Positions 11,248-64,000 of a stretch of 64,000 bases of DNA are shown piece after piece. Under the pieces are notes generated by a model. That model worked only from the letters and a program-made list of their open reading frames with translations, was not told the DNA's origin and searched no databases. The first letter of the stretch is position 1. Every line of letters begins with the position of its first letter. Origin of the DNA: Streptomyces sp. L-9-10 (lineage in GTDB: Bacteria > Actinomycetota > Actinomycetes > Streptomycetales > Streptomycetaceae); assembly GCF_004151105.1 (NCBI RefSeq), contig NZ_PHRF01000005.1:266026-330025 (forward strand), read 5' to 3'. The position numbers and the translations under genes were made by a program.

Positions 11248-11276
11248 CTGGACTCCCTGCCGTCGTCTGCCGTGGG

Positions 11277-12950: not shown

Positions 12951-13023
12951 TGCGTCAAACCCTTCGTGGTGCGCAGGCACATACGGCGAAAGCCCGCCGG
13001 ACAGCTGCGGAGTCGAAGATTTG

Positions 13024-13037
13024 TCGAAGCGCTTCGA
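13024..13037. promoter_or_regulatory. LacI-type operator 3 (TCGAAGCGCTTCGA)
   Basis: Perfect palindrome identical to the site at 3033-3046, 74 nt upstream of the minus-strand binding-protein gene. It is the expected repression site for the transporter/GH74/GH42/GH12 operon. Confidence 0.8.
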
Positions 13038-13210
13038 TATTGCTGCGAGGTTAAATGAACCCTTCGGGAGGCACAAGAGTCACCTCCAAGATTCCTTGCT
13101 GTCTGGTTATTGCCACCCAACATGCTTGTGAAGAAGTGGAGTTGGCTGGATATTTCGCAGGGGTCCGGCGCATGGGGGTGTCTTGACAGTCGACCGGCTG
13201 ACTCGGAGCA

Positions 13211-13224
13211 TCGAAGCGCTTCGA
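13211..13224. promoter_or_regulatory. LacI-type operator 4 (TCGAAGCGCTTCGA)
   Basis: Perfect palindrome identical to operators 1 and 3, 64 nt upstream of the GH3 start at 13289. It is the expected repression site for the GH3 gene. Confidence 0.8.
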
Positions 13225-13288
13225 AAGTTGATCGGCAGCCTCTTCCGGCGCTTTCGGCCCCACCGACCTTCTCCAGGGAGAACCGCCC

Positions 13289-16156
13289 GTGACCGAGGAA
13301 CAGCCGCCCTTCCGTGACCCCCGGGCGACCCGTGCCGCGCGTGTCGAGGATCTGCTCGCGCGGCTGACACTCGAAGAGAAGACCGCCCTGCTGCATCAGT
13401 TCGCCCCGGCCGTCGAGCGCCTGGGCGTCGCGGCGTTCCGCACCGGACAGGAAGCGCTGCACGGCGTCGCCTGGATGGGGCCCGCGACCGTGTTCCCGCA
13501 GGCCGTCGGGCTCGGCGCGACCTGGAACGAGGAACTGGTGCGCCGGGTCGGCGAGGCCGTCTCCCGCGAGATACGGGCCATGCGCGCGCGGGACGGCCGG
13601 GTCGGGCTCAACGTCTGGGCCCCGACGGTGAATCTGCTCCGCAACCCGCTCTGGGGACGCAACGAGGAGGGGTACGCGGAGGACCCCCGGCTGACCTCCG
13701 TCCTCGCCACCGCCTACACCCGCGGCCTGCGCGGCGACCACCCCGACTACTGGCGCACGGCGCCCGTGCTCAAGCACTGGCTCGCGCACAACAACGAGAC
13801 GGACCGGGCGACCACGTCCTCCTCCATCCGCCCCCGCGTGCTGCACGAATACGATCTGCGCGCCTTCAGAGGGGCCGTCGAGGCGGGCGCGGTGGCCGGG
13901 GTCATGCCCGCGTACAACCTGGTCAACGGGCGTCCCAACCATCTCTCGCCCGCGCTGCGCGAGCACCTGCGCGGCTGGACCGACCAGGAACTGCTGGTCT
14001 GCTCCGACGCGGGCGCGCCCAGCAACCTGGTCGACGCCGAGGCGTACTTCGACACCCACGAGGAGGCCACCGCCGCCGCGCTGCGCGCCGGGGTGGACAG
14101 CTTCACCGACCACGGCACCGACGCGTCCGTGCTCACCGGCCGGATCCGCCGTGCGCTGGAACGGGGCCTGATCGACGCTTCCGATGTCGACACGGCGGTA
14201 CGACGGCAGCTGACGGTGCGGTTCGGGCTCGGGGAGTTCGATCCGGAACGCGATCCGTACCGGGAGACCTCGGCCTTCGACACCCCTGGACACCGCGCGC
14301 TCGCCCAGGAGGCGGCCGAGCAGGCCGTCGTTCTGCTGAAGAACGACGGCCTGCTGCCGATCGCGCCGGGCCGCCGTATCGCGCTGGTCGGTCCGCTCGC
14401 CGACGAGTGCAAGCTCGACTGGTACAGCGGCACCCTGATCCGCCGGTCCACCCCGCTCGACGGGCTCGCTGAACGCTTCGGCACCGACCGCGTCACCTTC
14501 GCCGACGGCGCGGACCGGATCAGGCTCAGGGCCGTGACGGGCGGCTGGGTCCGGGTGCCCGGGGCCGGGACGGCGAAGGCGGCGGCAGAGGAGGCGGCGG
14601 GGGAGGCGCGCGGCGCCGGGGGCGCGCTCGACCCGGCGCTGCTGGCGGGGCGCACCGACCTGCCGCCGCTGACCTGCGACGCCGCCCGGTCCGGCGAGGC
14701 CACCGAACTGGCCCTGACCGACTGGGGGAACGGGCTGATCACCCTGCGCGCGCCGGACGGCCGCTATCTGTCCGTCGCGGAGGACGGGTATGTACGGGCC
14801 TCCGCCGATCAGCCCGGCGGCTGGGTGGTCCAGGAGACCTTCCGGCTCGAAGAGCACGAGGGCGGGCACCTCCTTGTACACGCGGGGACCGGCGGGCACG
14901 TATCGGTCGCCGCCGACGGCCTGAAGGTTGCCGGCCCCGGCACACCTTTCGAGATCACCGTCGTCGAGCGCGGCGAGGACACGGTGGCCCGCGCCGCGGC
15001 CGACGCCGACGTGGTCGTCGTCGTGGCGGGCAACGACCCGCACATCAACGGCCGCGAGACCGAGGACCGCCGCACCCTCGCCCTGCCACCGCACCAGGAC
15101 CGGCTGTGGCGGGCCGCCCACGCCGCCAACCCGCGCACCGCGCTCGTACTGGCCTCGGGCTATCCGTACGCGGTGGCCGACGCGCAGGCCCGGCTCCCCG
15201 CGCTGCTGTGGACCGCCCACGGCGGCCAGGCGGCGGGCATCGCGCTCGCGCGGGTACTGGCCGGTGATGTCTCACCGGCGGGACGGCTGCCCCAGACCTG
15301 GTACGCGGACGACGCGGATCCGGGCGGACTGCTCGACTACGACATCATCGGCTCGCGCCAGACCTATCTCTACTTCGACGGCACCCCGCTCTACGCCTTC
15401 GGCCACGGGCTGTCGTACACCTCCTTCCGCTACGACCGGCTGGAGGTCGGCCCGAGCCTGCGGGCACGCGTCACGGTCACCAACACGGGCACCCGCGCCG
15501 CCGACGAGGTGGTGCAGCTGTACGCGAGGGAGGCCGCCCCGCGCGTCCCCCGTCCGCACCGCCAACTGGTCGCGCACGCCCGCGTATCGCTGGCGCCGGG
15601 AGGCACGCGCACCATCGAACTGGCCGTCAGCGGAGACGAACTGGGCCACTACGACGTGGCGCGCGGCGCGTGGACCGTACCGGGCGGAACGTATGTCTTC
15701 GAAGCCGCCGCGTCCAGCGCGGACATCCGCCGCTCCGTCCGGCTCACCGTCCCGGGCGACGCCCCGCGCGCCAGGGACCTGCGGCGCGACGGACTGGCCG
15801 CGGCCGACTACGACGAGCAGACCGGCACCGAGATCGTCGACCGGACCAGGGTGTCGGGCGACGCGGTGACCCCGCTCGGCACGGACGGCGAGCGGAAGGC
15901 GGGCGAACTGCTCTTCCGGGACTGTGACTTCGGCGACGGCGCCGGCGGCGTGACCCTCGACGCGGCGGGCGAGGGTGAGGTCACACTGACCACGGCCGAC
16001 GGCGGGGCACTCGCGGTGATCGAGGTCAGGGCGGGCGGCGGACCGTACGACTACCGCACCACCCCGCGCGCCGGACTCCCGCTCTCGGGCGTGCACGACC
16101 TCAGGGTCACCCTGCGCGGCCCGCTGCGCCTCGCGCGGATCGATGTCACCGGATGA
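13289..16156 (+). CDS. GH3 beta-glucosidase with an inserted beta-trefoil-like domain
   Basis: A 955-residue enzyme with no signal peptide, so intracellular. Order of domains: GH3 barrel (about 10-330) with nucleophile D240 in LLVCSDAGAPSN; alpha/beta sandwich (about 340-690) including KNDGLLPI and the later VVVVVAGNDPHINGRETEDR; fibronectin-III-like domain (about 710-800, GHGLSYTSFRY then VTNTGTRAADEVVQLY); and a C-terminal beta-rich extension (about 840-955) like a family 6-type CBM. Inside the alpha/beta domain an extra segment (about 470-560) reads LITLRAPDGRYLSVAEDGYVRA, a fascin/beta-trefoil style repeat, where other GH3 enzymes may carry PA14. The GTG start has AGGGAG at 13275-13280. 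It would trim glucose from imported oligosaccharides; an alpha-xylosidase needed for full xyloglucan breakdown is not in the window. Confidence 0.92.
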   Translation: MTEEQPPFRDPRATRAARVEDLLARLTLEEKTALLHQFAPAVERLGVAAFRTGQEALHGVAWMGPATVFPQAVGLGATWNEELVRRVGEAVSREIRAMRARDGRVGLNVWAPTVNLLRNPLWGRNEEGYAEDPRLTSVLATAYTRGLRGDHPDYWRTAPVLKHWLAHNNETDRATTSSSIRPRVLHEYDLRAFRGAVEAGAVAGVMPAYNLVNGRPNHLSPALREHLRGWTDQELLVCSDAGAPSNLVDAEAYFDTHEEATAAALRAGVDSFTDHGTDASVLTGRIRRALERGLIDASDVDTAVRRQLTVRFGLGEFDPERDPYRETSAFDTPGHRALAQEAAEQAVVLLKNDGLLPIAPGRRIALVGPLADECKLDWYSGTLIRRSTPLDGLAERFGTDRVTFADGADRIRLRAVTGGWVRVPGAGTAKAAAEEAAGEARGAGGALDPALLAGRTDLPPLTCDAARSGEATELALTDWGNGLITLRAPDGRYLSVAEDGYVRASADQPGGWVVQETFRLEEHEGGHLLVHAGTGGHVSVAADGLKVAGPGTPFEITVVERGEDTVARAAADADVVVVVAGNDPHINGRETEDRRTLALPPHQDRLWRAAHAANPRTALVLASGYPYAVADAQARLPALLWTAHGGQAAGIALARVLAGDVSPAGRLPQTWYADDADPGGLLDYDIIGSRQTYLYFDGTPLYAFGHGLSYTSFRYDRLEVGPSLRARVTVTNTGTRAADEVVQLYAREAAPRVPRPHRQLVAHARVSLAPGGTRTIELAVSGDELGHYDVARGAWTVPGGTYVFEAAASSADIRRSVRLTVPGDAPRARDLRRDGLAAADYDEQTGTEIVDRTRVSGDAVTPLGTDGERKAGELLFRDCDFGDGAGGVTLDAAGEGEVTLTTADGGALAVIEVRAGGGPYDYRTTPRAGLPLSGVHDLRVTLRGPLRLARIDVTG

Positions 16157-49799: not shown

Positions 49800-50813
49800 G
49801 TGACCGATCCAGCCGAGCGCGGTGACACGGCACCGCTCGCCGTACGCGAGGCCGCCTGGTATCTGCCGGAGCCGGTCGTGCCGGTCGACGGACTGGCGGC
49901 ATGGGACGAGACCGAACTCCGCACCCGCGGCAGCCTGGGGATCGACACCGTACGGGCGGACGACCGGGTGAGCGCGGTGGACCTCTGCGAGCACGCCGCG
50001 CGCCGTGTGCTCGACCGCTCCGGAGTGGACGCCCGGGAGCTGGGGGCCCTGATCATGGTCGAGTCACGGGCACCGGAAACCCTGCTCAGCTCCGAGGTGA
50101 CCCGGCTGCAGCAGCTGCTCGGCGCCGGTGCGGCGACGACCCTCACGGTGGGCGGGCTCGGCTGTGTCTCGATCAGCGCCGCCCTGATCACCGCCCGCGG
50201 ACTGCTCGCCGGGGACGCCGCCTTGGACAACGTCCTGGTCGTACACGGCAGCAAACCGGCCGCGGCGGTGCGTTACCGCCATCCCGTGACGGTCAACGGC
50301 GACGGCGGGCAGGCACTGCTGCTCTCCCGCCGCGGGCCCGTCCGGATCCTCGACATCGCGCAGCGGACCAACGGCCAGTACTGGGACCTCTTCCAGGTGA
50401 AGTACCGGGACCGGCCCACCGCGCAGTGGCGCGAGGAGTGCGGCGACCCGGCCACCTACTCCTTCCGGCTCGCCATGGAGACACGCGGCGCGCTCGCGGC
50501 GATGCTGCGCGAGGTCCTGGAACGCAACGGTCTGCGCCCGGCGGACATCCGCGGATATCTCAGCCACAACCTGTCCACGGGCAGCTTCACCTTCACCGAG
50601 GAATCCCTCGGCATCGGCATCCTGCCCGTCTGCCGGGAGAACCTCCGGCGCTACGGACACCTCGGCTCGAACGATGTCTTCCTGAACCTCTACACGGCCC
50701 TGGAGCGCAAGGAACTCGCCACGGGGGACCGCGTCGTACTGATCAATGCCAGTCCGGTAGCCGCCTGGAGTCTGCTGCTGGTCGAGATAGGACCACAGGA
50801 GGGTGTGGCGTGA
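49800..50813 (+). CDS. ketoacyl-ACP synthase III-like enzyme of the biosynthetic cluster
   Basis: A 337-residue thiolase-fold protein of the FabH/KSIII class. The nucleophile is C122 in VGGLGCVSISAALI, with the catalytic His at H256 (YLSHNLSTG) and Asn at N291 (LGSNDVFLNLY), so the triad is complete. KSIII enzymes prime polyketides, transfer acyl groups, or (in tetronate clusters) condense a glyceryl-ACP with a beta-ketoacyl chain. The GTG start has GGGAG upstream. It heads the operon and overlaps the ACP gene by 4 nt (GTGA), suggesting that it works on that ACP. Its precise role is open. Confidence 0.88.
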   Translation: MTDPAERGDTAPLAVREAAWYLPEPVVPVDGLAAWDETELRTRGSLGIDTVRADDRVSAVDLCEHAARRVLDRSGVDARELGALIMVESRAPETLLSSEVTRLQQLLGAGAATTLTVGGLGCVSISAALITARGLLAGDAALDNVLVVHGSKPAAAVRYRHPVTVNGDGGQALLLSRRGPVRILDIAQRTNGQYWDLFQVKYRDRPTAQWREECGDPATYSFRLAMETRGALAAMLREVLERNGLRPADIRGYLSHNLSTGSFTFTEESLGIGILPVCRENLRRYGHLGSNDVFLNLYTALERKELATGDRVVLINASPVAAWSLLLVEIGPQEGVA

Positions 50814-51079
50814 ACGGCATCACCGAAGAGGTCACGGAGTTCCTGACCGCGGCGCTCCGCCGGCCGATCGGCCCGGACGACGACTACTTCGCCCTGGGCC
50901 TCGCGGACTCGCTCTTCGCGCTGGAACTGGTGACCTTCGTCGAGGAGCGCTTCTCGTTCACGGTGGAGGTGGAGGACCTCGACCTGGACAGCTTCCGCAC
51001 AGCCACCCGCATCACGGAATTCGTGCTCCGCAAGACCGGGTCCGGCCGGCTGACGGAAACCCATGACCAGGGTGCCTGA
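50810..51079 (+). CDS. discrete acyl carrier protein (FkbJ-like)
   Basis: An 89-residue ACP. The phosphopantetheine serine is in LGLADSLFALELVTFVEE (about residue 33), the family DSL motif. In FkbH-type pathways such an ACP carries the glyceryl unit and its oxidised products. The GTG overlaps the KSIII stop, and the 3' end overlaps the acyl-CoA dehydrogenase start by 17 nt, so the genes are tightly coupled. Confidence 0.9.
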   Translation: MNGITEEVTEFLTAALRRPIGPDDDYFALGLADSLFALELVTFVEERFSFTVEVEDLDLDSFRTATRITEFVLRKTGSGRLTETHDQGA

Positions 51080-52331
51080 CGCCGCGCCGCCCGGAGCCGG
51101 GCCGCCGGCCGACACCCTGATGCACGACGCGCCGGCGGCCGGCGGCCGGCCGGGAGACGGACAACCCGCCGCCGACGAGTCCTTGGTACGAGCGGCGGCC
51201 GAACTCGCCGCCGGGGCACGGGGTCCGGCCGCCGACTGGGACCGGACCGGCGGACTGCCCGGCTCCGTACGCGGGGACATGGCCGCGGCGGGACTGCTCG
51301 GCGCCGACCTGCCCCGGAGGTACGGGGGAGCGGGCCTCGGCCCTGCGGCGCTCGGCGAAGTGGCCGCACACCTGGGCGGGGTGTGCAGCGCCCTGCGCGG
51401 GCTGCTGACCGTCCAGGGCATGGTCGCGGCGGCGCTGGCGCGCTGGGGCACCCGGGAACAGCGCGCCCACTGGCTCCCGAGGCTGGCGAGCGGTGAGCTG
51501 ACCGCGGGCTTCGCGGCCACGGAACAGGCGGCCGGCAGCGCGCTCGGGGCCGTGGAGACCCGTATCGAGGACTCCGGCGACGGCGCGGACATCAAGGTGA
51601 GCGGCCGCAAGAAATGGATCACCTTCGGTGAGGTGGCCGATGTCTTCCTGGTGCTGGGGAAGAGCCGCGGCAAGTCCGCCACCGTGCTCGTCGAGGCCGA
51701 CCGTACGGGCGTGAGCCGGGAGCCGGTGACCGGCCAGCTCGGTATGCGCGCCGCGCGGATCGCGCATGTGACCTTCGACGCGGTACGGGTCCCCCGGAGC
51801 CATCTCGTCGCCCCGCCGGGGCTCGGGCTGTCCCATGTCGCGGCCACCGCGCTCGACCACGGCCGCTTCACGGTCGCCTGGGGATGCGTGGGCATGGCCG
51901 AGGCGTGTGTCGCCGACGCCGCCACACATGCCGCCACCCGCTCCCAGGGCGGCGTGCCGCTCGCCGACCACCAACTCGTCCGGTCGCTGCTGGCCCGCTG
52001 CGCGGTGGAGACCGCGGGCGCGCGTGAACTGGCCCGCCGGGCGGCGGAGTTCCGCGCGCCGGGTGCGGGCAGGGGCGTCACGGAGACCATCGTCGCCAAG
52101 TACGCGGCCGCCGCCGCTGCCGCCTCGGTCAGCCGCGACACCGTACAGATCCTCGGCTCGGCCGGCTGCGAGCCCGACAGCAGACCGGGACGCCACTTCC
52201 GGGACGCCAAGGTCATGGAGATCATCGAAGGAGCGCAGCACGTGTCCGAACTCCACATAGCCGATCGCCTTCTGCGTCAGTTCGGCGCTCCGCCCGCCTC
52301 CGCCACGCGGCTCCCCGGGGAGCCGGTGTGA
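51063..52331 (+). CDS. acyl-CoA dehydrogenase-like flavoprotein (FkbI-like)
   Basis: A 422-residue ACAD-fold protein. An Ala/Pro-rich N-terminal extension (about 1-40) precedes the helical domain. FAATEQAAGSALGAVETRI matches the FAD/substrate strand (usually CVTEP-like), and MEIIEGAQHVSELHIADRLL is the C-terminal base/FAD region. In methoxymalonyl- and hydroxymalonyl-ACP pathways this enzyme oxidises the C3 aldehyde stage of the ACP-bound unit to the carboxylate. Its position between the ACP and the FkbH gene supports that role. Confidence 0.85.
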   Translation: MTRVPDAAPPGAGPPADTLMHDAPAAGGRPGDGQPAADESLVRAAAELAAGARGPAADWDRTGGLPGSVRGDMAAAGLLGADLPRRYGGAGLGPAALGEVAAHLGGVCSALRGLLTVQGMVAAALARWGTREQRAHWLPRLASGELTAGFAATEQAAGSALGAVETRIEDSGDGADIKVSGRKKWITFGEVADVFLVLGKSRGKSATVLVEADRTGVSREPVTGQLGMRAARIAHVTFDAVRVPRSHLVAPPGLGLSHVAATALDHGRFTVAWGCVGMAEACVADAATHAATRSQGGVPLADHQLVRSLLARCAVETAGARELARRAAEFRAPGAGRGVTETIVAKYAAAAAAASVSRDTVQILGSAGCEPDSRPGRHFRDAKVMEIIEGAQHVSELHIADRLLRQFGAPPASATRLPGEPV

Positions 52332-53407
52332 CGGCGGACCAGGGCGCCCCGGCGCGCGCCCCGCTGACCGCTCCCGCTCCCGTCGTCAAGTGCCTGGTGT
52401 GGGACCTGGACGACACGCTGTGGGACGGTGTCGTTCTGGAGAACGACGATCCGGAGCCGTTCCCCGAGGCGCTGGAGACCCTGAGCGCACTGGACAAGCG
52501 GGGCATCCTGCACGCCGCCGCCAGCCGCAGCGAACACACCGCCGTCACCCGCCATCTGACGGAACGCGGCCTGGACGACTGGTTCTGCGCGGTGCAGGTC
52601 GGCTGGGGTGCCAAGTCCGGCGCGCTGCGCCGTATCGCCGAGACCCTCAACATCGGCCTGGACACCCTCGCGTTCGTCGACAACGACCCGGCGGAACGTG
52701 CCGAGGTCGAGGCGGCGCTGCCCATGGTCCGCTGCTACCGGGCCGACGAGGTCGGCCGGCTCCCGGACCGCGCCGAATTCCAGCCGGCACAGGTCACCGA
52801 GGAGGGGTCCCGGCGACGCGCGCTCTACCGCACCGAGTGGCGGCGCCGGGAGGCCGAAGAGGAGTTCGGTGAGGACCGGCAGGCCTTCCTCGCCTCGCTC
52901 GACCTGGTCATGCGGCTGCGACCGGCCACCGAGGACGACCTGTCCCGGGCCAGTGAACTGACCGTCAGGACCCATCAGCTCAACAGCACCGGCCTGACCT
53001 ACGACGCGGACGAACTGCGCGAGCTCAGCGCGTCGCCCGGCCATCAGGTGCGGGTGGCACGGCTCAGCGACCGGTTCGGCGACTACGGGATCATCGGCCT
53101 GGCCGTCACCGAACTCACGCCCGGGGACTCGATCCTGCGGCTGATGCTGATGTCCTGCCGGGTCGCCTCACGGGGAGTGGGCGGTGTCCTCCTCAACCAT
53201 CTGGTCAAGGAGGCGCTGGCGGAGGGCCGCCGGCCCGTCGCGCACTTCGTGCCCACCGACGTCAACCGGAACATGCTGGTCACGCTCCGGTTCGCGGGCT
53301 ATCGGCCGGTCGCCACCGAGGAGGGCCACATGGTGCTCGCGGTCGACCAGGACCGTCCGGCTCCGGAGCACCACAGCCATACCCGTGTGATCACCGGCGC
53401 GGAGTGA
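52328..53407 (+). CDS. FkbH-like HAD-superfamily glyceryl transferase/phosphatase
   Basis: A 359-residue protein. The HAD domain has the nucleophile motif LVWDLDDTLWDGVVLENDD (about 21-39) and VDNDPAERAEVEAALP. The C-terminal half is GNAT-like and contains RLMLMSCRVASRGVGGVLLN, with the cysteine that carries the glyceryl group in FkbH enzymes. These dephosphorylate 1,3-bisphosphoglycerate and load glycerate on the ACP. The GTG overlaps the dehydrogenase stop by 4 nt. With ACP, ACAD and the 3-hydroxyacyl dehydrogenase at 61291 this completes a hydroxymalonyl-ACP set. Confidence 0.92.
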   Translation: MTADQGAPARAPLTAPAPVVKCLVWDLDDTLWDGVVLENDDPEPFPEALETLSALDKRGILHAAASRSEHTAVTRHLTERGLDDWFCAVQVGWGAKSGALRRIAETLNIGLDTLAFVDNDPAERAEVEAALPMVRCYRADEVGRLPDRAEFQPAQVTEEGSRRRALYRTEWRRREAEEEFGEDRQAFLASLDLVMRLRPATEDDLSRASELTVRTHQLNSTGLTYDADELRELSASPGHQVRVARLSDRFGDYGIIGLAVTELTPGDSILRLMLMSCRVASRGVGGVLLNHLVKEALAEGRRPVAHFVPTDVNRNMLVTLRFAGYRPVATEEGHMVLAVDQDRPAPEHHSHTRVITGAE

Positions 53408-53420
53408 GAAGGGGGAGACG

Positions 53421-55481
53421 GTGGTGTACAGCTACGCGCGCGACCGCGACGGAGCCGCTGGGCCCCGCGCCAAGGGCACGACCGCGACAGAGCAGGGGCC
53501 GACCGCGACCGGACAGGATCAGGTCGTCACTGAACAGGGTGCGACCGAGACCCGACGGAGGCCGATCGTGACCGAACACGGGCCGATCCTGGCCGCCTTC
53601 CGGCAGCAAGCCGCCCGCTCCCCGGAGACGACCGCCCTCATCATCGGGGAAGCGGTCCTCACCTACCGCGAACTCGACCACGCCTCGGCCGGGCTCGCCC
53701 AGCTCCTGCGGCAGCGCGGTGCGCGGCCGGGCCGGGTCGTCTGCATCCGCGTCGAACAGAGCGCCCTCGCCGTCATCGGGGTACTCGCCGCGCTCCGGAC
53801 CGGCGCCGCCTGGGCCGCGCTCGAACCGGACCTGCCGGCCTCGCGCGTACGGGCGCTGTTCCGCGACACCGACTGCGCGGTGGTGCTGAACACCGGGGAC
53901 GACCCGGCCATGACGGGCCTGGCGGACCCGCCGCAGCGGCTCGAAGCCGCCGGACTCCGGATACCCGACCTCATCGAGACGGGCGCGCGCGTCGCCGACG
54001 TGGACGAGGGGTACCCGCCGGTCTCCGAGGACGCCCCCGCCTACCTCGTCTACACCTCGGGATCGACCGGGCTCCCCAAGGGGGTCATGGTCAGCCGTGC
54101 CCAGCTCGCCGCGTCCATCGGCTCCCGCGCCGGGGTCTACGGCACCGAACCCTCCACCTTCCTGATGGCGATGCGGCTGTCGTTCGACGGCATGCTCGGC
54201 GGCATGTTCTGGTCGTTCCGCAACGGCCACACACTGCTGCTGCCCGATCTGCGGCAGCTGAGGCAGGTCCGGGAACTCGCCCGGCTGGCCGGCGCACACC
54301 GGGCGACCCATCTCATCGTCGTCCCCTCCTACTACCGGGCACTGCTGGACGAGAGCCGGCTGCTCCCCGATTCCCTGCGGCTGGTGGTGGTCGCGGGCGA
54401 GGTCTGTACGCCGGAGCTGGTGCGTACCCACCACGAGCGGCTGCCCGGCGTGCTGCTGGCGAACGAGTACGGCCCCACCGAAACGATCATCTCCTGCACC
54501 GTCGAGCCCGACCCGGACGCCTCCCGGCCACGGATCCCCATCGGCCGGCCCTGGCCGGGCGCCGAGGCTTGGGTACTGGACGACCGGCTGCGCGAGGTAC
54601 CGGCCGGGGTGGAGGGCGAGCTGTACATCGGTGGCGCGTTCGTGGCCCTCGGCTACGCCGGACAACCGGGCAGAACGGCCGAGAGGTTCGTCGCGGACCC
54701 GTTCGGGCGGCCGGGAGCGCGCCTGTACCGCACCGGTGATCTCGCCCTCGTCGACGAACGGGGAGCGCTGCACTACCACGGCAGAACCGATCTCCAGGTG
54801 AAGATCCGCGGCACGCGTATCGAACTCGGCGAGATCGAGAGCGTCCTGGAGCGCCATCCCGCCATCGGCCAGGCGGTGGTGGTCTGCGAACCGGCCGAGG
54901 ACGACGAGCCGCGCCTGACGGCCTTCTTCACGCCCGCCGGGCCCCAGGTCACGCCGCCCGGCGGGATGGCACTGCGCCGGCACTGCCTCGGACATCTGGT
55001 GGAACAGGCCGTGCCCACCGTGTTCGTGCCGGTCGCGCGGATGCCGCTGAACAGCAGCGGCAAGGCCGACCGTACGGCGCTGTCGCGCGACTTCGCCCCG
55101 GCGGGCGGGCCCGAGGGCGGCGCGGCGGGGGATCCGGCCGACGGCCGGCTCGCCGGCTCGACGCGCGAGAACTCCCCCTGGGAGGGGTGGACCGGCCACC
55201 GGCGGAGCGTCGGAGCCATCTGGGCGGCCGTGCTCAGACACCCCGACACCGGTCCCGACGACAACTTCTTCGCGGTCGGCGGCAGTTCCCTCAAGATCAT
55301 CGATCTGCACGCCCGGCTGAATCAGCGGTGGCCCGGGGTGCTGCGCATGGGAGAGCTGTTCGACCTCATCACCATCTCCGCCCAGGCGGAGGCGATCACG
55401 AACCGCGTGGGCACGGGCACGGACGCGCAGGCGGACGCCCGGCGACAAGACCTCACGACCCCGACCGCTTATGAGCTGTGA
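53421..55481 (+). CDS. stand-alone NRPS loading protein: adenylation-thiolation (A-T)
   Basis: A 686-residue didomain. Residues 1-45 are a degenerate Thr/Glu/Gln repeat (TATEQGPTATGQ, VVTEQGATETRR, IVTEHGPI). The A domain (about 50-550) has core motifs LVYTSGSTGLPKGVMV (A3), NEYGPTET (A5), YRTGDLA (A7) and NSSGKADR (A10). MRLSFDGMLGGMF shows the Asp that binds the alpha-amino group, so an amino acid is expected, but I cannot read its identity with confidence. The T domain serine is in FFAVGGSSLKIIDL. No condensation domain is present, so it loads the first residue. GTG 53421 has GGGGGAG upstream. Confidence 0.93.
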   Translation: MVYSYARDRDGAAGPRAKGTTATEQGPTATGQDQVVTEQGATETRRRPIVTEHGPILAAFRQQAARSPETTALIIGEAVLTYRELDHASAGLAQLLRQRGARPGRVVCIRVEQSALAVIGVLAALRTGAAWAALEPDLPASRVRALFRDTDCAVVLNTGDDPAMTGLADPPQRLEAAGLRIPDLIETGARVADVDEGYPPVSEDAPAYLVYTSGSTGLPKGVMVSRAQLAASIGSRAGVYGTEPSTFLMAMRLSFDGMLGGMFWSFRNGHTLLLPDLRQLRQVRELARLAGAHRATHLIVVPSYYRALLDESRLLPDSLRLVVVAGEVCTPELVRTHHERLPGVLLANEYGPTETIISCTVEPDPDASRPRIPIGRPWPGAEAWVLDDRLREVPAGVEGELYIGGAFVALGYAGQPGRTAERFVADPFGRPGARLYRTGDLALVDERGALHYHGRTDLQVKIRGTRIELGEIESVLERHPAIGQAVVVCEPAEDDEPRLTAFFTPAGPQVTPPGGMALRRHCLGHLVEQAVPTVFVPVARMPLNSSGKADRTALSRDFAPAGGPEGGAAGDPADGRLAGSTRENSPWEGWTGHRRSVGAIWAAVLRHPDTGPDDNFFAVGGSSLKIIDLHARLNQRWPGVLRMGELFDLITISAQAEAITNRVGTGTDAQADARRQDLTTPTAYEL

Positions 55482-58400
55482 AGGCAGGGTGCTGCATGAA
55501 CGGGATGGCGACATGAGCGGTACGGGCACGGCATACGGGCGCGACGCGACGCGCGAGGACCGCGCGACGCGGGGAGACGGTGTGACGGCGGACGACGGCG
55601 CGACGCGGGCGCGACCGGCCGTCGCGGTCATCGGCATCGCCACGCGCTTTCCGCAGGCGGACAGCCTCGACGCGTTCCGGGCGAATCTGCGGAACGGCGT
55701 CGACTCGGTGCGCCCCATACCGCGGGAACGTGTCGAGTCCACCTGCCTGGACCCCTCCGCGGACTACCCGGAGCTGGGGTATCTCGACCGGATCGATCTC
55801 TTCGACCATGAGTACTTCGGTCTGTCGCGGCGCGAGGCGGAGGTCACCGACCCGCAGCACCGGATCGCCCTCGAACTCACCCACGAGGCCCTGCAGAACG
55901 CCGGATACGCCCCCTCGGGCCTGCGCGACAGCCAGACCGCCGTGATCTTCAGCTCCCCGAGCAACGGCTACGCGCCGCTGGTCCGCGAGCACGGCACGCT
56001 GAGCATGATCGGCAACGTCCCCTGCATACTGCCCGCCCGGATCTCCCACATCTTCGGGCTGACAGGGCCCTGCTACGGCGTCGACACCGGCTGCAACGGC
56101 TCGCTCGTCGCCGTACACCAGGCATGCCGCGAACTGCGCGACGGCGACGCGGAGTACGCGGTGGCCGGCGGGGTGAGCCTGCGTCATGTCGTCGCGCCCG
56201 CCGCGACCGTGGCGGCCTTCCCCGGCATCAGCTCGCCGACCGCCAGATCCCGGGCGTTCGACCACGCGGCGGACGGAGCGGGCGGCGGTGAGGGGGGCGC
56301 GGTCCTGCTGCTCACCACCCTGGAGCGGGCGTTGGCGGACGGCGCGTTCATCCACGCCGTGATCCGCGGCAGCGCCGTCGTGCACAACGGCCGGCACTCG
56401 GCCACCATCAGCACGCCGAGCGCCAGGTCCCAGGCGGAGGTCATCCGCAAGGCGTGGCGCAGCGCGGACCTGGACATCGGGACGGCCGGGTACGTCGAGA
56501 CACACGGCTCGGGCACCCGGCTCGGCGACGCCATCGAGGCGGAGGGGCTGGCGCTCGCCCGCCCCGGCGACCGCCGCGGCCTCGCGGTCGGTTCCGTGAA
56601 GACCAACCTCGGACACCTGGACCACGCCGCCGGAATCGCCGGGCTGGTCAAGACGATCCTCAGTGTGCGCCACGGTGAGCTGTACCCTTCGCTGCACTTC
56701 GAACGGGCGGCGGACGAGGTCGATCTCGAGGGTGCCCGCCTCGACGTCGTGACATCGCTCCGGCCCTGGCGCGACGAGGTGCGCCGCGCCGGTGTCAGCT
56801 CGTTCAGCCTCGGCGGAGTCAACGCGCACTGCGTGGTGGAGCAGGCGCCCGGGACGGCCGTACGGCGGCGCTCGGCGGACACCGGCGCCGGCGCGGCCGG
56901 CGGAGCGGCCGGCGGACCGGGCGCCGACGCGGCGCGCTTGGTCGGTGTATCCGCCCGTACGCCCGCCGAGCTGATCGCCCTGTGCGAACGGCTCTCGCTC
57001 GAACTGCGCCACAGCACACAGCCGTTGGCCGATGTCGCCAGGACGCTGAACGAGGGACGGGAGCACCACCCCCACCGCGTCGGCGCGGTGGCCGGCCGGA
57101 CCACCGAACTGGCCGTCAGACTGGCAGCGGAGGCCACCTGGCAGCGACTGGAGACCCCGGCCACGGCAGTGTCACCGCGGACGGGCAGGACCGAGGCCCG
57201 GTCCGCCGCCGCGCCCCGCGTGGTGTTCCTGTTCTCCGGGGACGCCGACCCCGGCCGGGCGCCGGAGGCGGACCCGCTCCCGGGCCCGCTGCCCGAGCGG
57301 CTGCCCGTACCGGCCGACCGCGCCACGATGGTGCGCGGCCAGCTCGCCGCGTACACCCGGCTCACCCGGGCCGGAGTGACCCCCGACGGACTGATGAGTT
57401 CCGGGATCTCCCGGTATACCGTCCGGCATCTTCAGAACACCCTGACGCCCGCCGACACCGCGACGCTGGAGCGGGCGACGAGCGGCCAGGACCCGGCGGT
57501 GGCCGGGAAGGCGCTCCGGCTGGAACAGCTGAGGGCGGCGGCGGACGAACAACTCGCGGGCGGACCCGTCGTGTTCGTGGAGCTGGCGGCCCGTGGTGAG
57601 CTGGGCGAGCGGCTGGCGGAGTATCTGCACGGCCGCGCGGACGCCGCCGTCCTCACCCTGGACTCCGGCACGGACGGGGTGCTCGACGTCCTCGGGCACC
57701 TCTATGAGCGGGGGTGGGACCCCGACTGGTCCGCGCTGTCGGTGGCCGCCGGTGAGCGCGGGGGCGGCGTCGGACGCCGGGTCCCGTTGCCCGGCCACCG
57801 GCTCAGGGGCGTCCGCTGCTGGGCGCGGCCCGTCGGCGACATCATCTCCTTCGGGGGCTTCGGAGCCGCCGCGCCGGCGACGAGGGCCGCCGAGGCGGTG
57901 CCGCCCCCGGCGCTCGCCACCGAGCCCGTCCACGTCCCGGCGCCCGCCGAAGCCCCCGAGCCTGTTCATGTCTCCGCGCCCGCCCACGTGCCCGCGCCCA
58001 GGGCCGTTCCGGCGTCCGTTCCGGCTCCTGTACCCGCCGCCCCTGAGGCCCCCGTACCCGCGCCCGCAGCCGTTCCCGCCGCGCCCGCACCCGCCTCGCC
58101 CGCGCTTTCGTCCGGGCCCGGTCCGAGTGCGCCGTCCGGCCCGCAGACAGTGCTGAGCTGGCTCCGGGAATCCCTCACCGATCTGCTCCGCGCGGACGAG
58201 GTCCCGGCGGACGCCGACTACTTCGCCATCGGCGGGAACTCCGTCATCGGGCTCCAGCTCGTCCAGGGGATGGAGCGGCGCTACGGCGTCCACCTCAAGC
58301 TGGTCGACATCTACGACCATCCCGTCGTCGGCGACCTCGCGGACGCCCTCGCGGCCCGGCTGCCGCAGGCCCCGCCGGAAGAGGGGACACGGCCGGAACC

Positions 58401-61257
58401 GTCGGCCGCGGCGCCCGCCGTCCAGGACGACGGCCATGCGCTGCCCCCGATCCTTCCCGGCGAGGAACTGGTGCTGTCGTACGGGCAGGAACGCATGTGG
58501 TTCCACCACCAGCTGGACCCGACCACCACGCTCTACAACCTGCCCGGCGTCTCCCGGCACCGGGGCCCGCTGGTTCCCGGCGCCGTCCGGCTCGCCTGGG
58601 AGGATCTCGCCCAGCGGCACGAGACCCTGCGATCCAACTTCATCGAGGCCGACGGACGGCCGCGGCTGGTGATCCGCCCTGAGCTGGGCGACTTCTTCCG
58701 GTACGAGGACGTCACCGCCGACCCGGACCCCGAGGCCGCGGCGCGCGCGATCATCAGGACCGAGACCGGCTGGGTGTTCGACATCGCCCGTGATTCGCTG
58801 GTCCGGGTGACGCTGGTACGCGTCGCGCCCGAGGAGTATCTCTTCTGCTGGGCGATGCACCACGCGGTCAACGACGGCTGGGCGCCCCAGATCCAGATGA
58901 AGGAGTTCCTCGCGTTCTACACGGCCCGTCTGGAGGGCCACGTACACCGGTTCGACCCGCTGCCCGTGCAGTACCGGGACTACGCGCGCTGGCAGCGGGA
59001 ACTGCTGGAGGGCTCCCGGCTCGACGGCGAACTCGACTACTGGCGCGGGCGGTTGAACGATCCCCCCGCGCTCGAACTGCCCACCGACCGGCCGCGTGCC
59101 ACACGCATGGACTTCGCGGGAGCGTCCCACGGGTTCACCCTCCCCGGTGACCTGGTCAACGGACTGAGGGCCGTGGGCGGCAGGGAGACCGCCACGCTCT
59201 TCATGGTGCTGCTCACCGGCCTCAAAGTGCTGCTCGCGCGCTGGTCCGGTCAGCGGGACATCGTGATCGGCACGCCGACCATCGGCCGCAGCCGCCCCGA
59301 ACTGTGGGGTCTGCTCGGCTTCTTCAACAACACCATCGCGCTGCGCTCCGACCTCTCCGGTGATCCGACCTTCCGGGAACTGCTGCGTCAGGTACGCGGT
59401 GTGGTGCTAGGCGCGCTGGACCATCAGGAGATCCCGTTCGACAAGATCGTGCGCGAGGTCGCACCGGAGCGTGATCCCAGCCGGAACCCGATCTTCGACG
59501 TGATGTACGTCCACCAGACGCTGCCGGCGGGCCTGGCGTTCGGCGAGGACCTGTTCGGCCCGGCCGGGCACGAGGACACCGGTCCCTACTTCCCCGGACT
59601 GCCCAAGGGCACGGCCAAGTTCGACCTCACGGTGGTCGTCGCCGAGCGGGCGGGCGAGGAATCACTCGACGTGGTGATCGAGTACGCCACGCAGCTCTTC
59701 GACGCCGGTACGGTCGAGGCCCTGTCGGCGTCGCTGATCGAGCTGTTGCGCGCCGTCGCGGCGGACGAGGACACCCCGTACGGGGAGATTCCCGTCCAGC
59801 CGGCCCCTGCCCAGCGGACTGTCACCGTCCCGACCGTCCCCGAGCCGACCGTCGCCCCACCGACCGTCACCGTGCCGGCTGTCACCGTGCCGGCTGTCAC
59901 CGATCCGGCTGTCACCGTGCCGGCCGTCATCGAGGCCGCCGCCCCGGACCTCCCGGTCCCGTCCGGCGTTTCCGGAGACCCGGTCGGCGTCTGCGTGGAA
60001 CTGCGTGGCGAGGTGGACGGAGCACGGCTGCGGACCGCGTTCCAGGAACTGGCCGAGCGGCACGCGGTGCTGCGCCCCCTGCGCGGTGACTTCTTCACCG
60101 CCGTCGACACCTCCGGCCTCGACGAACCGACGGCCGCCGCCCGCGAACTCGCCCTGGCCGAAGGGCGGCGGCCCCTGGACCCGGTGGCGGGCCGCCCGCT
60201 GCGCGCGCTGCTGATCACCACGGGCCGCACCGAGCACATCCTCGTGGTGACCACTCACCCCACGGCCTACGACGGAGGACAGCCCGGTGTGTTCTTCCGG
60301 GACCTGTTCGCCCTCTACGGCGCACGGCTGCGCGGACACCCGGCGGGTCTGCCCGCGCTGCCCGAAGTCCCGGTCCGGAACGCGGAGTACGCGCGCCAGG
60401 ACGATTCACCCGATCCGCTCGCGGTCGCGGACGGTCCGCTCAACGGACGGCTCGACCACTGGAAGCGCACCCTCTCCGGGCTGCGCGCCTCCGGCCTGCC
60501 CGCCGACCGGCCGCGCCCCCTCGCCGGTACCGGCGCCTGCGCCGCCCACACCTTCCGGGTTCCGGAGGAACTCGCCGTCGAACTGACCCGGGCCGGAGCC
60601 CGCGAGGGGCTGCTCGCGGGCATCACCACGCTCCTCGCCCTGCGCTCCGAGACCGAAGAGGCGGTCATCGGACTCACCACGGCGCCGGGCCGGGCCCCCG
60701 GGGGAACGGGAGACGGCCGGGAGCGGCCCGGCACGGACGAACGGATCGGCGCGTTCGCGCGCACCGTGCCGCTGCGTATCGCGCTCGCCGACGATCCCTC
60801 CTACGACCTGCTCACCGAGCGGATCCGCGAGGTGGTCGCGGACGCCGAGAGCCACCGGGACGTGCCGCTCGCCGATATCGTCCGCGCGGCCGGCGTGCCC
60901 CAGGAGCCGGGGCGGGCGCCGCTCTTCGATGTCGTCTACGCCCACCACCGCCTGCCCGCGGCGCTCGGCTCCGCGGCCGGTGTCGAGGCCGGTGCCGTGC
61001 GGTGGCCGGGGGAGGAGGCGGGACGGCTCACCCTGCCCACCGGTACGGCGGTCCACGATCTGGCCTGGTCCGTCGTCGAAGGCCCCGAGCCGGGCGCGTT
61101 GCAGGTGTCGGTGGAGTACCGCACCGAGATGTTCGACGCCTCGACGGTCACCGCCCTCGCCGACGACCTGGTCGCCCTCGTGCGCGCCGCCGTCCGTGAG
61201 CCCGCCTCGCCCCTGTCGCACCTGTGGTTCAGCGCCACCGCGTCACTCGCCGACTGA
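55471..61257 (+). CDS. hybrid PKS-NRPS megasynthase KS-AT0-ACP-C-C0
   Basis: A 1928-residue protein. KS about 52-460 with C208 in VDTGCNGSL (usual DTACSSSL), HGSGT and NLGHLDHAAG, so the C/H/H triad is intact. AT remnant about 583-786: FLFSGDADPG replaces the usual FLFSGQGAQ, and GHSxGE is replaced by SSGISRY (643-649), so no nucleophile. A Pro/Ala linker (about 800-890) follows, then an ACP with S924 (GGNSVIGL). C1 about 990-1437 has intact HHAVNDG (H1130, H1131). A 15-bp-repeat linker (about 1466-1485, PAVTV) comes next, then C2 about 1505-1920 with H1596-P-T-A-Y-D-G, where the catalytic second His is Pro. No KR, so a beta-keto product is expected. The start at 55471 overlaps the upstream stop by 11 nt; ATG 55513 is the alternative. 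Confidence 0.92.
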   Translation: MSCEGRVLHERDGDMSGTGTAYGRDATREDRATRGDGVTADDGATRARPAVAVIGIATRFPQADSLDAFRANLRNGVDSVRPIPRERVESTCLDPSADYPELGYLDRIDLFDHEYFGLSRREAEVTDPQHRIALELTHEALQNAGYAPSGLRDSQTAVIFSSPSNGYAPLVREHGTLSMIGNVPCILPARISHIFGLTGPCYGVDTGCNGSLVAVHQACRELRDGDAEYAVAGGVSLRHVVAPAATVAAFPGISSPTARSRAFDHAADGAGGGEGGAVLLLTTLERALADGAFIHAVIRGSAVVHNGRHSATISTPSARSQAEVIRKAWRSADLDIGTAGYVETHGSGTRLGDAIEAEGLALARPGDRRGLAVGSVKTNLGHLDHAAGIAGLVKTILSVRHGELYPSLHFERAADEVDLEGARLDVVTSLRPWRDEVRRAGVSSFSLGGVNAHCVVEQAPGTAVRRRSADTGAGAAGGAAGGPGADAARLVGVSARTPAELIALCERLSLELRHSTQPLADVARTLNEGREHHPHRVGAVAGRTTELAVRLAAEATWQRLETPATAVSPRTGRTEARSAAAPRVVFLFSGDADPGRAPEADPLPGPLPERLPVPADRATMVRGQLAAYTRLTRAGVTPDGLMSSGISRYTVRHLQNTLTPADTATLERATSGQDPAVAGKALRLEQLRAAADEQLAGGPVVFVELAARGELGERLAEYLHGRADAAVLTLDSGTDGVLDVLGHLYERGWDPDWSALSVAAGERGGGVGRRVPLPGHRLRGVRCWARPVGDIISFGGFGAAAPATRAAEAVPPPALATEPVHVPAPAEAPEPVHVSAPAHVPAPRAVPASVPAPVPAAPEAPVPAPAAVPAAPAPASPALSSGPGPSAPSGPQTVLSWLRESLTDLLRADEVPADADYFAIGGNSVIGLQLVQGMERRYGVHLKLVDIYDHPVVGDLADALAARLPQAPPEEGTRPEPSAAAPAVQDDGHALPPILPGEELVLSYGQERMWFHHQLDPTTTLYNLPGVSRHRGPLVPGAVRLAWEDLAQRHETLRSNFIEADGRPRLVIRPELGDFFRYEDVTADPDPEAAARAIIRTETGWVFDIARDSLVRVTLVRVAPEEYLFCWAMHHAVNDGWAPQIQMKEFLAFYTARLEGHVHRFDPLPVQYRDYARWQRELLEGSRLDGELDYWRGRLNDPPALELPTDRPRATRMDFAGASHGFTLPGDLVNGLRAVGGRETATLFMVLLTGLKVLLARWSGQRDIVIGTPTIGRSRPELWGLLGFFNNTIALRSDLSGDPTFRELLRQVRGVVLGALDHQEIPFDKIVREVAPERDPSRNPIFDVMYVHQTLPAGLAFGEDLFGPAGHEDTGPYFPGLPKGTAKFDLTVVVAERAGEESLDVVIEYATQLFDAGTVEALSASLIELLRAVAADEDTPYGEIPVQPAPAQRTVTVPTVPEPTVAPPTVTVPAVTVPAVTDPAVTVPAVIEAAAPDLPVPSGVSGDPVGVCVELRGEVDGARLRTAFQELAERHAVLRPLRGDFFTAVDTSGLDEPTAAARELALAEGRRPLDPVAGRPLRALLITTGRTEHILVVTTHPTAYDGGQPGVFFRDLFALYGARLRGHPAGLPALPEVPVRNAEYARQDDSPDPLAVADGPLNGRLDHWKRTLSGLRASGLPADRPRPLAGTGACAAHTFRVPEELAVELTRAGAREGLLAGITTLLALRSETEEAVIGLTTAPGRAPGGTGDGRERPGTDERIGAFARTVPLRIALADDPSYDLLTERIREVVADAESHRDVPLADIVRAAGVPQEPGRAPLFDVVYAHHRLPAALGSAAGVEAGAVRWPGEEAGRLTLPTGTAVHDLAWSVVEGPEPGALQVSVEYRTEMFDASTVTALADDLVALVRAAVREPASPLSHLWFSATASLAD
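59866..59925 (+). repeat. 15-bp coding tandem repeat (VTVPA x 4) between the two C domains
   Basis: Four units starting 59866, 59881, 59896 and 59911, near-identical GTCACCGTGCCGGCT, encoding V-T-(V/D)-P-A. They form an extended Pro/Val/Thr linker joining C1 and the degenerate C2. Looser PTV/TVP copies precede it. Confidence 0.85.
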
Positions 61258-61290
61258 CATCCCGGACAGAGCCGAAGGAGATCCGCAACC

Positions 61291-62325
61291 GTGCGCGAAC
61301 GCAAGGACAGTGAGCCGGCCATCGCCACCGGCGCGCCCGTGGGCGTCGTCGGTGCCGGAACGATGGGGATCGGCGTGGCGCAGTGCTTCGCGGAGGCCGG
61401 GTACCCCGTGGTGGTCGTCGATTCCGACCCGGCGGCACTCGGCGGCGGCCCGGCCCGCCTCCGCGCGGGGGTGCGGATGGCGCAGCTGCTGCGGCGTCGC
61501 TCCTCCGCATCAGCCGGAGCCGGAGCCGGAGCCGGAACAGACTCAGACTCAGGTACAGACTCAGGCAGAGGTGCCGGGGCCGGAGGCGGGACGCCCGCGT
61601 CCTCCTCTCCGTCCCCCGAGGCGCGTGTCGTCTGGTCGGAGAAGCTCTCCGACCTGGCCCCCGCCTTCTTCGTGGTCGAGTGCGCGCGCGAGAAGGTGCC
61701 GGTCAAGGAGGAGATCCTGCGGCAGCTGGACCAGGTGTGCGGCCCCGACACGGTCTTCGCGTCCTGTACCTCGTGCATCCCGATCACCCGGCTCGGATCC
61801 GTCACCGGCCGTCCCGACCGGGTGATCGGCACCCACTTCATGAACCCGGCCCCCCTCAAGGACGCCGTGGAGGTCATCCGCGCGCCCCGGACCAGCGAGC
61901 AGACCGTCCGGCGGACCGTGGACCTCCTCGCGGAGATCGGCAAGCAGGCCCTCGTGATCCGCGACGCGCCCGGTTTCGTGACGAACCGCGTGCTGATGCT
62001 GACGCTCAACGAGGCCGCCACCGTGCTGGGCGAGGGAACGGCCGACGCCGAGACCGTGGACCGCATCTTCCAGGACTGCTTCGGCCACCCGATGGGGCCG
62101 CTGCGTACGGCGGACCTGATCGGGCTGGACACCGTACTCGACTCACTCGACGTGCTGCGCGAGTTCACCGGCGACGAACGCTTCCGGCCATGCGCCCTGC
62201 TGGCCCGTCATGTCGCGGAAGGCAGCGTCGGCCGCAAGTCCGGCCGCGGTTTCTACCAGTACCCGGAGCAGAGGCAGCGTCCGGAACACCATCTCGTCTC
62301 GCGGGGAGGAGCCAGCCATGGCTGA
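61291..62325 (+). CDS. 3-hydroxyacyl-CoA dehydrogenase-like enzyme (FkbK-like)
   Basis: A 344-residue NAD-dependent dehydrogenase. The N-terminal loop [28 protein letters not shown] binds NAD. Catalytic residues are found in context: Ser in [10 protein letters not shown], His in [10 protein letters not shown], Glu in VEVIRAP, Asn in [10 protein letters not shown]. It should oxidise the glyceryl-ACP alcohol towards hydroxymalonyl-ACP. A low-complexity Gly/Ala/Ser/Asp insert (about residues 71-110) interrupts the Rossmann domain; it uses codons such as AGA and TCA that are rare here. Without it the length is normal. GTG 61291 has GAAGGAG upstream. It overlaps the next NRPS gene by 8 nt. Confidence 0.9.
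61511..61583 (+). repeat. simple-sequence insert in the FkbK-like gene
   Basis: GGAGCC repeated in tandem, then ACAGACTCAG-type repeats, encoding AGAGAG and DSDSGTDSG. Base composition and codons are unlike the flanking gene, consistent with recent slippage expansion in a surface loop. Confidence 0.7.
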
Positions 62326-64000
62326 CCACCAGAGTGCGCGCACCGCAATGTCCGCCGCGGGCCGGGAGGTCTGGCGCGGCTCGCCGGACGGTCCCCGGGG
62401 ACCGGGCCTGTACGCCGCGGAGGTCGTGGAGATCCACGGCGCCCTGGACGTCACGGCGTTCGAGAAGGCGCTGGCCCAGGTCGTCCAGGAGAGCGACGCG
62501 CTCCGCCTGCGGCTGCCGGGGAGCGAGCCCGGTACGCGGGAGGCCCCGGCCCTGGAGTCCGCCGACAGCCTGCCGTTGCCGCTGGTGGACGTCAGTGCCG
62601 AGCCCGATCCGGTGGCCGCGGCGGAGGAGTGGGTACGGGCCCAGCTCGCCCGGTCGGCCCGTCCGGCCGGGAACGCGGCGTCGGCACAGGCACTGATCCG
62701 CCTCTCCGCGCACCGCTTCCACTGGTTCCACCGGCATCACCGCTCGGTGCTCGACGGCTTCGGCTGCTCACTGATCACCCGCCGGGTCGCGGAGGTCTAC
62801 ACGGCGCGTGCCGAGGGCCGGCCGCTACGGGATTCCGCGCTGGTGTCACCGGCGGTGCTGCTCGCGGAGGAGGCCGAATACCGCGCGTCGGACGACCACG
62901 GGCGGGATCTGGCGTTCTGGCGCGAGTATGTCGCGGGCAGGACCGAGCCGGTGACCCTGGCCGAGGAAACGGCGCCGGGCGCCGCGGGCGCCGTAGGCGC
63001 TTTTGCCGAGGCTGCCGTCGAACCCGGGCTCCCGTTCGTTCTCACCACCGCCGTCACCGACCGCGTGCGCGCGGCGGCCCGCTACAGCGGCACCCCGTCC
63101 CGGGCCGTGCTGTTGGCCGCCGTCGCGGCGTACACACACCGGATGAGCGGCGGTACGGACCTCGTGCTCGGTCTGCCGGTCGACGGACGGCCGACCCGGA
63201 TCTCCCAGCGCGTGCCGGGCGCCGCCGAGGACATCGCGGCACTGCGGCTGACGGTGCGCCCCGGTACGGGCTTCGGTCAACTCGCCCAGCGGGCGGCCCA
63301 GGAGAGCCGCCGTGTCCGCGCGCGTCAGCGGCTGCGGCACGAGGAGCTGTGCCGGGAGCTGGGACTGCCGGGCAGCCGCCCGCAACTCTACGGGCCCGTC
63401 GCCGACATCCGGACCCCCGGCCCGGAGATCCGGTTCGGCGCGCTGCCCGCCGTCACCCGCAGGGTGGGTCACGAACCCGTCCAGGATCTGCGCGTGGTGA
63501 TCGACGAGCTTCCCGGCGACAGCCGTCTGCGGATCGCTTTCGAGGGCGCCCCCGGCCGGTACACCGCTGCCCAACTGGCGGCCCACGGACAGCGTTTCGG
63601 GCGTCTGCTGTCCGCCGCCGTGGCCGCTCCCGGCCTGCCGGTCGGCACGTTCGATCTCCTGGACGCCGGCCTGCGGGCGACCGTGCGCGGCTGGACGGGG
63701 GCCGTGGAGCGGCGCCCTCAGCAGGGCACGCTCACGGAACTGCTGGAGACCGCGGCGGCCCGGCACCCCGACGCGATCGCCGTCCGGGACCGTACGACGC
63801 GGCTCACCTACGGCGAACTCCACGAGCGGGCCAACCGCCTGGCCCATCTGCTGATCCGCCGGGGGGCCGGACCCGAGCGGGTGGTGGGGCTGCTGCTGCC
63901 CCGGTCGACCGAGGCGATCGTCGCGATGCTGGCGGTGCTCAAGACCGGCGCCGCGTATCTGCCGCTCGACCCCGCCTACCCGGCTCAGCGGATCCGTTTC
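62318..64000 (+). CDS. NRPS, condensation and start of adenylation domain (runs off the window)
   Basis: 561 residues are visible. Residues about 10-450 are a condensation domain of the type that opens many Streptomyces NRPSs and Ent[20 protein letters not shown] aligns with the EntF motif, but the catalytic second His is R142 (H141-R-S-V-L-D-G). Later [11 protein letters not shown] is typical. The adenylation domain begins about 470 ([39 protein letters not shown]) and runs to the window edge after the A2 region ([19 protein letters not shown]). ATG 62318 has GGGGAGGAG upstream and overlaps the FkbK-like gene by 8 nt. The number and specificity of the remaining modules lie outside the window. 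Confidence 0.92.

Follow-up and report, generated by a model that had tools for sequence, protein, structure and literature searches.

A ketosynthase III-like protein as probable trans loader of hydroxymalonyl in a Streptomyces hybrid peptide-polyketide locus

FkbH/I/K gene sets such as that of FK520 make methoxymalonyl. Hydroxymalonyl carried on a discrete acyl carrier protein (ACP) is used by the hybrid polyketide synthase/nonribosomal peptide synthetase (PKS/NRPS) of zwittermicin A, where, in the part of the published account available, the acyltransferase (AT) domain of ZmaA is a working one with the motif GYSFG (PMC4207774). CerJ and ChlB3 are ketosynthase III (KSIII)-like acyltransferases with a Cys-His-Asp triad; in the available portion of their description such enzymes acylate a sugar hydroxyl, as CerJ does with malonyl, or hand 6-methylsalicylyl to an ACP (PMC9573744). 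Trans-AT PKSs, such as the alpiniamide NRPS/trans-AT PKS, run ketosynthase (KS) modules that have no working AT and are loaded in trans, and the accessible text on alpiniamide reports a discrete AT in that cluster (PMC6113372). Here we describe a locus of Streptomyces sp. L-9-10 that resembles each of these systems in part. It begins in a 64,000-base stretch (NZ_PHRF01000005.1, positions 266,026 to 330,025; hereafter the window) inside a contig of 445,945 bases (genome size 8.85 Mb), and continues past the window's right edge, where positions are given as window-equivalents.

With zwittermicin A the locus shares a hybrid PKS/NRPS line and a predicted route to hydroxymalonyl on a discrete ACP, but its AT nucleophile elbow reads SSGIS where ZmaA has GYSFG (PMC4207774, as far as seen), and it has a KSIII-like protein in addition. 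Homologues of FkbH, ACP, FkbI and FkbK are common to this locus and the FK520-type sets, whereas an FkbG-like methyltransferase was not found here among the 23 proteins that we scanned for families, from window 43060 to window-equivalent 87280, ten of them from NRPS1 onward. Loading of a KS module in trans, proposed here, is what trans-AT PKSs do, but no discrete AT is present among the scanned proteins. The KSIII-like protein has the triad and fold of CerJ and ChlB3, with about 20% identity to ChlB3, and its proposed acceptor differs from theirs in being the ACP of an AT-less PKS module.

The operon is tight and runs rightward from about 49800 to window-equivalent 79702, encoding in order the KSIII-like protein, the ACP, FkbI, FkbH, a protein of adenylation and thiolation domains (A-T), a PKS protein KS-AT0-ACP-C-C0 (C, condensation domain; AT0 and C0, remnants of AT and C), FkbK, NRPS1, NRPS2 and MbtH. 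The same gene order was found again in other Streptomyces, so the arrangement is more than chance. An earlier note on the window had listed the genes from KSIII to FkbK as one operon, and family scans confirmed all of these parts. Extending the contig rightward, as that note had advised, completed NRPS1 (C-A-T-E-C-TE; E, epimerization; TE, thioesterase) and revealed NRPS2 and MbtH.

We consider it moderately likely that the AT-less module of this line, a hybrid with one PKS module whose AT looks dead, receives its hydroxymalonyl in trans from the KSIII-like enzyme. FkbH would charge the discrete ACP with glyceryl, which FkbK and FkbI would oxidise to hydroxymalonyl-ACP. The KSIII-like enzyme, using Cys-His-Asp, would transfer the intact hydroxymalonyl to the in-line ACP of KS-AT0-ACP, and the KS would then join it, with decarboxylation, to the peptidyl chain. 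This chain would pass from NRPS2 (threonine, then a valine-like residue) to A-T (residue X), KS-AT0-ACP-C, NRPS1 (a small residue) and finally the TE. We infer every enzymatic step, the substrates and the module order from sequence; the gene content and order, the loss of the AT motif and the conservation described below are observed directly.

The supply of the extender is indicated by a complete gene set. FkbH matches TIGR01686 with 239.8 bits against a cut-off of 146.65, is the sole match in the host genome, and retains both DLDDT and an MSCRV cysteine. FkbK has both 3HCDH domains. Together with the discrete ACP and FkbI these homologues form, within one operon, a hydroxymalonyl-ACP gene set, and by homology and by analogy with the zwittermicin scheme, as given in the part of that paper available (PMC4207774), the set would make hydroxymalonyl-ACP, as the earlier note had said of such sets. 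That note had also seen no methyltransferase, and methyltransferase families, including FkbG-like O-methyltransferases, are absent from all 23 scanned proteins, those downstream to window-equivalent 87280 included; a hydroxymalonyl unit in this line is likely on gene content, and a methoxymalonyl unit finds no support there.

The KSIII fold of the first protein of the operon is indicated by family matches and by a model with a predicted local distance difference test score (pLDDT) of 85.2. Among 87 KSIII loci read (67 named loci plus 20 further; 72 distinct), Cys127 is conserved in all 87, and His292 and Asp297 in all 86 that cover them, L118 being cut (residues are counted from 49785). The protein has a Cys-His-Asp triad of the CerJ/ChlB3 type in place of Cys-His-Asn: His292 stands at the position of FabH Asn274, and the position of FabH His244 holds Gln in 67 of the 86 covered loci and His in the other 19. 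A profile of the C-terminal part found ChlB3 as its first solved match, with GHLGxxD aligned. The fold leaves the function unsettled, and the triad favours acyl transfer.

The module that would receive the unit has lost its AT signature. No Pfam AT matches the PKS protein and GxSxG is missing at the AT nucleophile, and no discrete FabD-type AT is found by Pfam among the scanned proteins. The PKS has no KR domain, consistent with the extension without ketoreduction that the earlier note proposed. Its KS retains the cysteine and two histidine motifs, and its second C domain (C0) has THPTAYDG where HHxxxDG is expected. A model of the AT0 region (mean pLDDT 72.5) resembles KS-AT didomains and AT domains, ZmaA-AT among them, with TM-scores (template modelling) of about 0.4-0.6 of the query. 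In eight aligned type A modules the elbow reads (S/T)SGxxRY, with Ser158, Gly159, Arg162 and Tyr163 invariant. Gly159 stands at the position of the catalytic Ser in an ungapped by-eye alignment to an active AT of the host genome; shifting that alignment by one residue would put Ser158 there, still without GxSxG. AT0 looks dead yet conserved, which suggests that it is retained for a binding role.

AT-less KS modules accompany the KSIII gene well beyond this genome. KSIII matches at E 1e-30 occur in at least 32 of 392 genus genomes and AT0 relatives in at least 13, each of the latter a KSIII carrier; both counts are lower bounds because few first-look candidates were scored per genome (five for KSIII, seven for AT0). 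A KS is present in the fetched DNA of 62 of the 72 distinct loci, and GHSxG follows it in none of the 62. As GHSxG could miss hydroxymalonyl ATs (ZmaA-AT has GYSFG), the test was repeated with GxSxG. This looser motif is absent from 58 of the 62 loci, with stray matches in the remaining four, versus 34 of 35 control KSs (host-genome KSs with at least 200 residues after the KS) that have it, the windows differing slightly in that loci were read from the KS end to the ACP motif and controls at 100-330 residues past the KS. The stray matches (L060, L070, L084 and L110, at 264, 27, 311 and 294 residues past the KS) lack an AT context by eye and are taken as chance; a second KS of L110, on the reverse strand and with GHSxG, is a neighbour and was left out of the KSIII-module count. 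The only control KS without GxSxG after it lies near 121,651 of G000:C41 (L186). Of the 54 loci with both flanks covered for at least 7.5 kb, 51 have a KS adjoining KSIII, the exceptions being L061, L074 and L090. For L061, of S. cacaoi, KSIII-FkbI-FkbH-FkbK sits on one contig, and ACP, A-T and KS-AT0 (L133) on another, so both parts are present. KSIII had been noticed earlier without being given a role; its presence stands, and the triad, together with the regular occurrence of AT-less KS modules beside it, now makes it the probable extender loader.

FkbH is in the fetched DNA of 34 of these 54 loci. Of the other 20, twelve have FkbH about 12-21 kb away on the same contig, seven have none linked (L040, L069, L070, L093, L113, L114 and L115), and L099 was left out. 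FkbH is thus linked in 46 of 53 assessable loci, so that hydroxymalonyl, as predicted from gene content, is the rule in these loci and not the sole option. A different extender had been considered for loci whose fetched DNA lacks FkbH, and this proved mostly wrong, as FkbH was found about 12-21 kb from KSIII in 12 of 18 genomes searched. In a tree the window KSIII joins that of S. netropsis (99/93), the closest relative with a name, whose KSIII is 79% identical. A second, more distant clade, 36-43% identical to the window KSIII, is separated by long branches, the placement of G373, one of its rows, being unsure. All 13 loci read from this second clade retain the triad, and 11 of them also carry FkbK, ACP, FkbI and FkbH in full. 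Its eight extended loci hold 12 KSs, none with GxSxG; in G175 and G191 the KSs are on the opposite strand. FkbK-ACP-FkbI-KSIII-FkbH operons are seen in L141-L152 (all but L151; for example L142:3-7796), and in L142 KSIII lies alongside a T-reductase protein and a free-standing A domain.

The order of assembly appears to differ from the order of the genes. NRPS1 carries the sole TE of the line, the A-T protein has no C domain, and NRPS2 has a terminal C with no acceptor of its own after it. Since NRPS2 ends in this way, A-T more probably acts within the line, as a module fed by that terminal C, than as the starter loader that the earlier note had made of it, and the order NRPS2, A-T, KS-AT0-ACP-C, NRPS1-TE is likely. 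In all seven type A relatives whose whole line was read, the NRPS2 counterpart is C-ended (G177 and G366 have no E-C pairs, and their NRPS2 is C-A-T-C), and in G093, the only type C relative read, the KS module lies within a colinear NRPS, after A-T and before C-A-T. The A-domain pocket codes are DFWNIGMVH and DALWWGGTF for NRPS2, DGGIVAEIS for A-T and DVA-AAVVY for NRPS1, in which position 278 fell into a gap. From the usual pocket positions and code tables we tentatively take these to be threonine, valine-like, perhaps aromatic, and small or alanine-like, respectively. In the first C of NRPS1 the motif reads HHRSVLDG, its second His apparently lost. We would expect the line to yield a peptide, perhaps N-acylated, that bears a gamma-amino-beta-keto-alpha-hydroxy unit in its interior.

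Several observations weigh against trans loading of hydroxymalonyl by the KSIII-like enzyme. In VIA-align the top structures are mutually tied: NatS (Z 34.9, root-mean-square deviation 2.5, 314 aligned), ChlB3 (34.4, 2.8, 319) and DpsC (34.0, 2.8, 319), the absence of a structure from that list not being counted as evidence. Foldseek ranks FabHs first, and DpsC, of the same fold, is a condensing enzyme according to the part of the source available (PMC9573744). No KS lies within 10 kb of KSIII in Kibdelosporangium L074 or Verrucosispora L090, and the one examined of the two KSs in the L090 genome has GHSVG. In L090 the KSIII and Fkb set adjoins a C-T protein without an A domain and a C-A-T-C-A-T-TE protein (L090:861-9895, 10037-14462), and the acyltransferase may load an NRPS carrier directly there. 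The seven loci without linked FkbH count on the same side, as does the fact that linkage counts are not independent, the genes of one operon being co-inherited. A housekeeping FabD could also load malonyl instead.

The fold and the nearness to DpsC would suit a KSIII that condenses, joining an acyl or aminoacyl group to hydroxymalonyl-ACP or making a starter, with the type I KS doing another step or only passing the chain on; L090, with KSIII and the Fkb set and no AT-less KS found, points the same way. We think this unlikely, given His292 at the FabH Asn274 position and Gln at the His244 position in most loci, and given that the adjoining KS, with its Cys and His motifs intact, would have to be loaded all the same. 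A related reading, which we hold to be quite unlikely, has the KS use hydroxymalonyl-ACP directly, the extended chain being held by the discrete ACP until the KSIII-like enzyme passes it to the in-line ACP. This suits an acyltransferase with ACP partners on either side, but L069 and L115 have KSIII and an AT-less KS with neither a linked FkbH nor, in the fetched DNA, a relative of the discrete ACP.

The gene order A-T, PKS, NRPS1 invites another reading, in which A-T is the starter loader, the PKS adds hydroxymalonyl supplied by an unnamed AT and NRPS1 finishes, the KSIII serving an unrelated acylation like that of a sugar by CerJ; CerJ does make esters, in the accessible part of its description (PMC9573744). 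With only NRPS1 holding a TE, however, NRPS2 and its terminal C would be idle, though a C-ended NRPS2 is kept in all seven type A relatives, and the AT-less KSs next to KSIII would be left without a common loader, so this reading seems very unlikely to us. Whether extender loading by KSIII holds widely, with KSIII-derived trans extender loaders serving AT-less PKS modules in NRPS lines across actinobacteria and the dead AT acting as a docking platform ((S/T)SGxxRY in type A), is in our judgement an even call.

Table 1. Features of the operon, in window coordinates.
Feature	Position	Strand	Basis or remark
KSIII-like protein, proposed hydroxymalonyl acyltransferase	49800..50813	+	likely GTG start; KSIII fold and families; triad Cys127, His292, Asp297
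Discrete ACP, proposed carrier of glyceryl and hydroxymalonyl	50810..51079	+	PF00550, 28.8 bits; DSL serine motif
FkbI-like acyl-CoA dehydrogenase	51063..52331	+	best solved relative 1r2j (FkbI), E 3.2e-60
FkbH-like glyceryl transferase/phosphatase	52328..53407	+	TIGR01686 above cut-off; DLDDT and MSCRV motifs
Stand-alone A-T protein, proposed internal module	53421..55481	+	PF00501, PF13193, PF00550
Whole PKS protein KS-AT0-ACP-C-C0	55471..61257	+	
KS domain of PKS, active-site DTGCNGS	55618..56838	+	PF00109 and PF02801; motifs
AT0, remnant AT domain; nucleophile elbow SSGIS near 57397	57130..57840	+	no Pfam AT; model KS-AT/AT-like; conserved (S/T)SGxxRY
In-line ACP of PKS module	58159..58350	+	PF00550
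C and C0 domains, end of PKS protein	58465..61245	+	PF00668 in two stretches; HHAVNDG and THPTAYDG
FkbK-like 3-hydroxyacyl dehydrogenase	61291..62325	+	PF02737 and PF00725
NRPS1 start (C-A-T-E-C-TE)	~62318..64000, on to window-equivalent 69610	+	family scan
NRPS2 (C-A-T-C-A-T-E-C)	window-equivalent 69607-79383		past window edge
MbtH	window-equivalent 79484-79702		past window edge

Six upstream genes were scanned (a zinc-type alcohol dehydrogenase, RNase H, a PfkB kinase, a cytosine/purine permease, an ADP-ribosylglycohydrolase and a GntR regulator) and look unrelated to the cluster. After MbtH the family scan gave an M23 peptidase, a GT4 glycosyltransferase, a protein without family, a BPL_N protein, two FAD-binding proteins and an amidohydrolase. 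The M23-family peptidase gene follows MbtH directly (window-equivalent 79812-80672; L016:10812-11672) and, of 19 other loci compared, five (G391, G344, L077, L109, L111) have a relative of it by their KSIII cluster; its role is possibly self-protection or export. Two related loci, L069 (769-2436, 4540-6030, 8459-9805) and L076 (6669-8372, 8453-9874, 3250-4821), both hold isopropylmalate-synthase-like and aminotransferase genes, with a class II DAHP synthase in L069 and a tryptophan halogenase in L076; these genes suggest a homologated or halogenated aromatic residue in the products.

Searches of an open-access PMC library gave no description that we recognised of a KSIII-like enzyme as hydroxymalonyl loader, nor of this arrangement, and no characterised twin was found there, in keeping with the earlier note's failure to recognise the gene order. 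Several candidates were set aside on the available parts of their descriptions. In alpiniamide a KSIII does neighbour an NRPS/trans-AT PKS, but the cluster has a discrete AT as well, and starter decarboxylation is the role that its authors connect with the KSIII (PMC6113372); foxicin pairs FkbH with an NRPS/PKS, but the domain order differs (PMC5318452); and an oxazolomycin-like protein has C and FkbH in one protein, unlike here (PMC5932044). S. rimosus carries two KSIII loci, for which detoxin/rimosamide was considered, and Kutzneria CA-103260 carries one, for which epemicin was considered.

If our reading is true, the extender used in these lines would be decided by a small, free-standing KSIII-like enzyme acting on an oxygenated unit bound to an ACP, a third route to charging PKS modules next to cis-AT domains and FabD-type trans-ATs. 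That would account for the working of KS modules that have no active AT next to them in many actinobacterial clusters. The combination of a KSIII with GHLGxxD, an AT-less KS and the FkbH set would serve as a signature by which peptides with an alpha-hydroxy-beta-keto unit inside the chain could be sought, and the enzyme would be a portable part for putting hydroxymalonyl into engineered lines.

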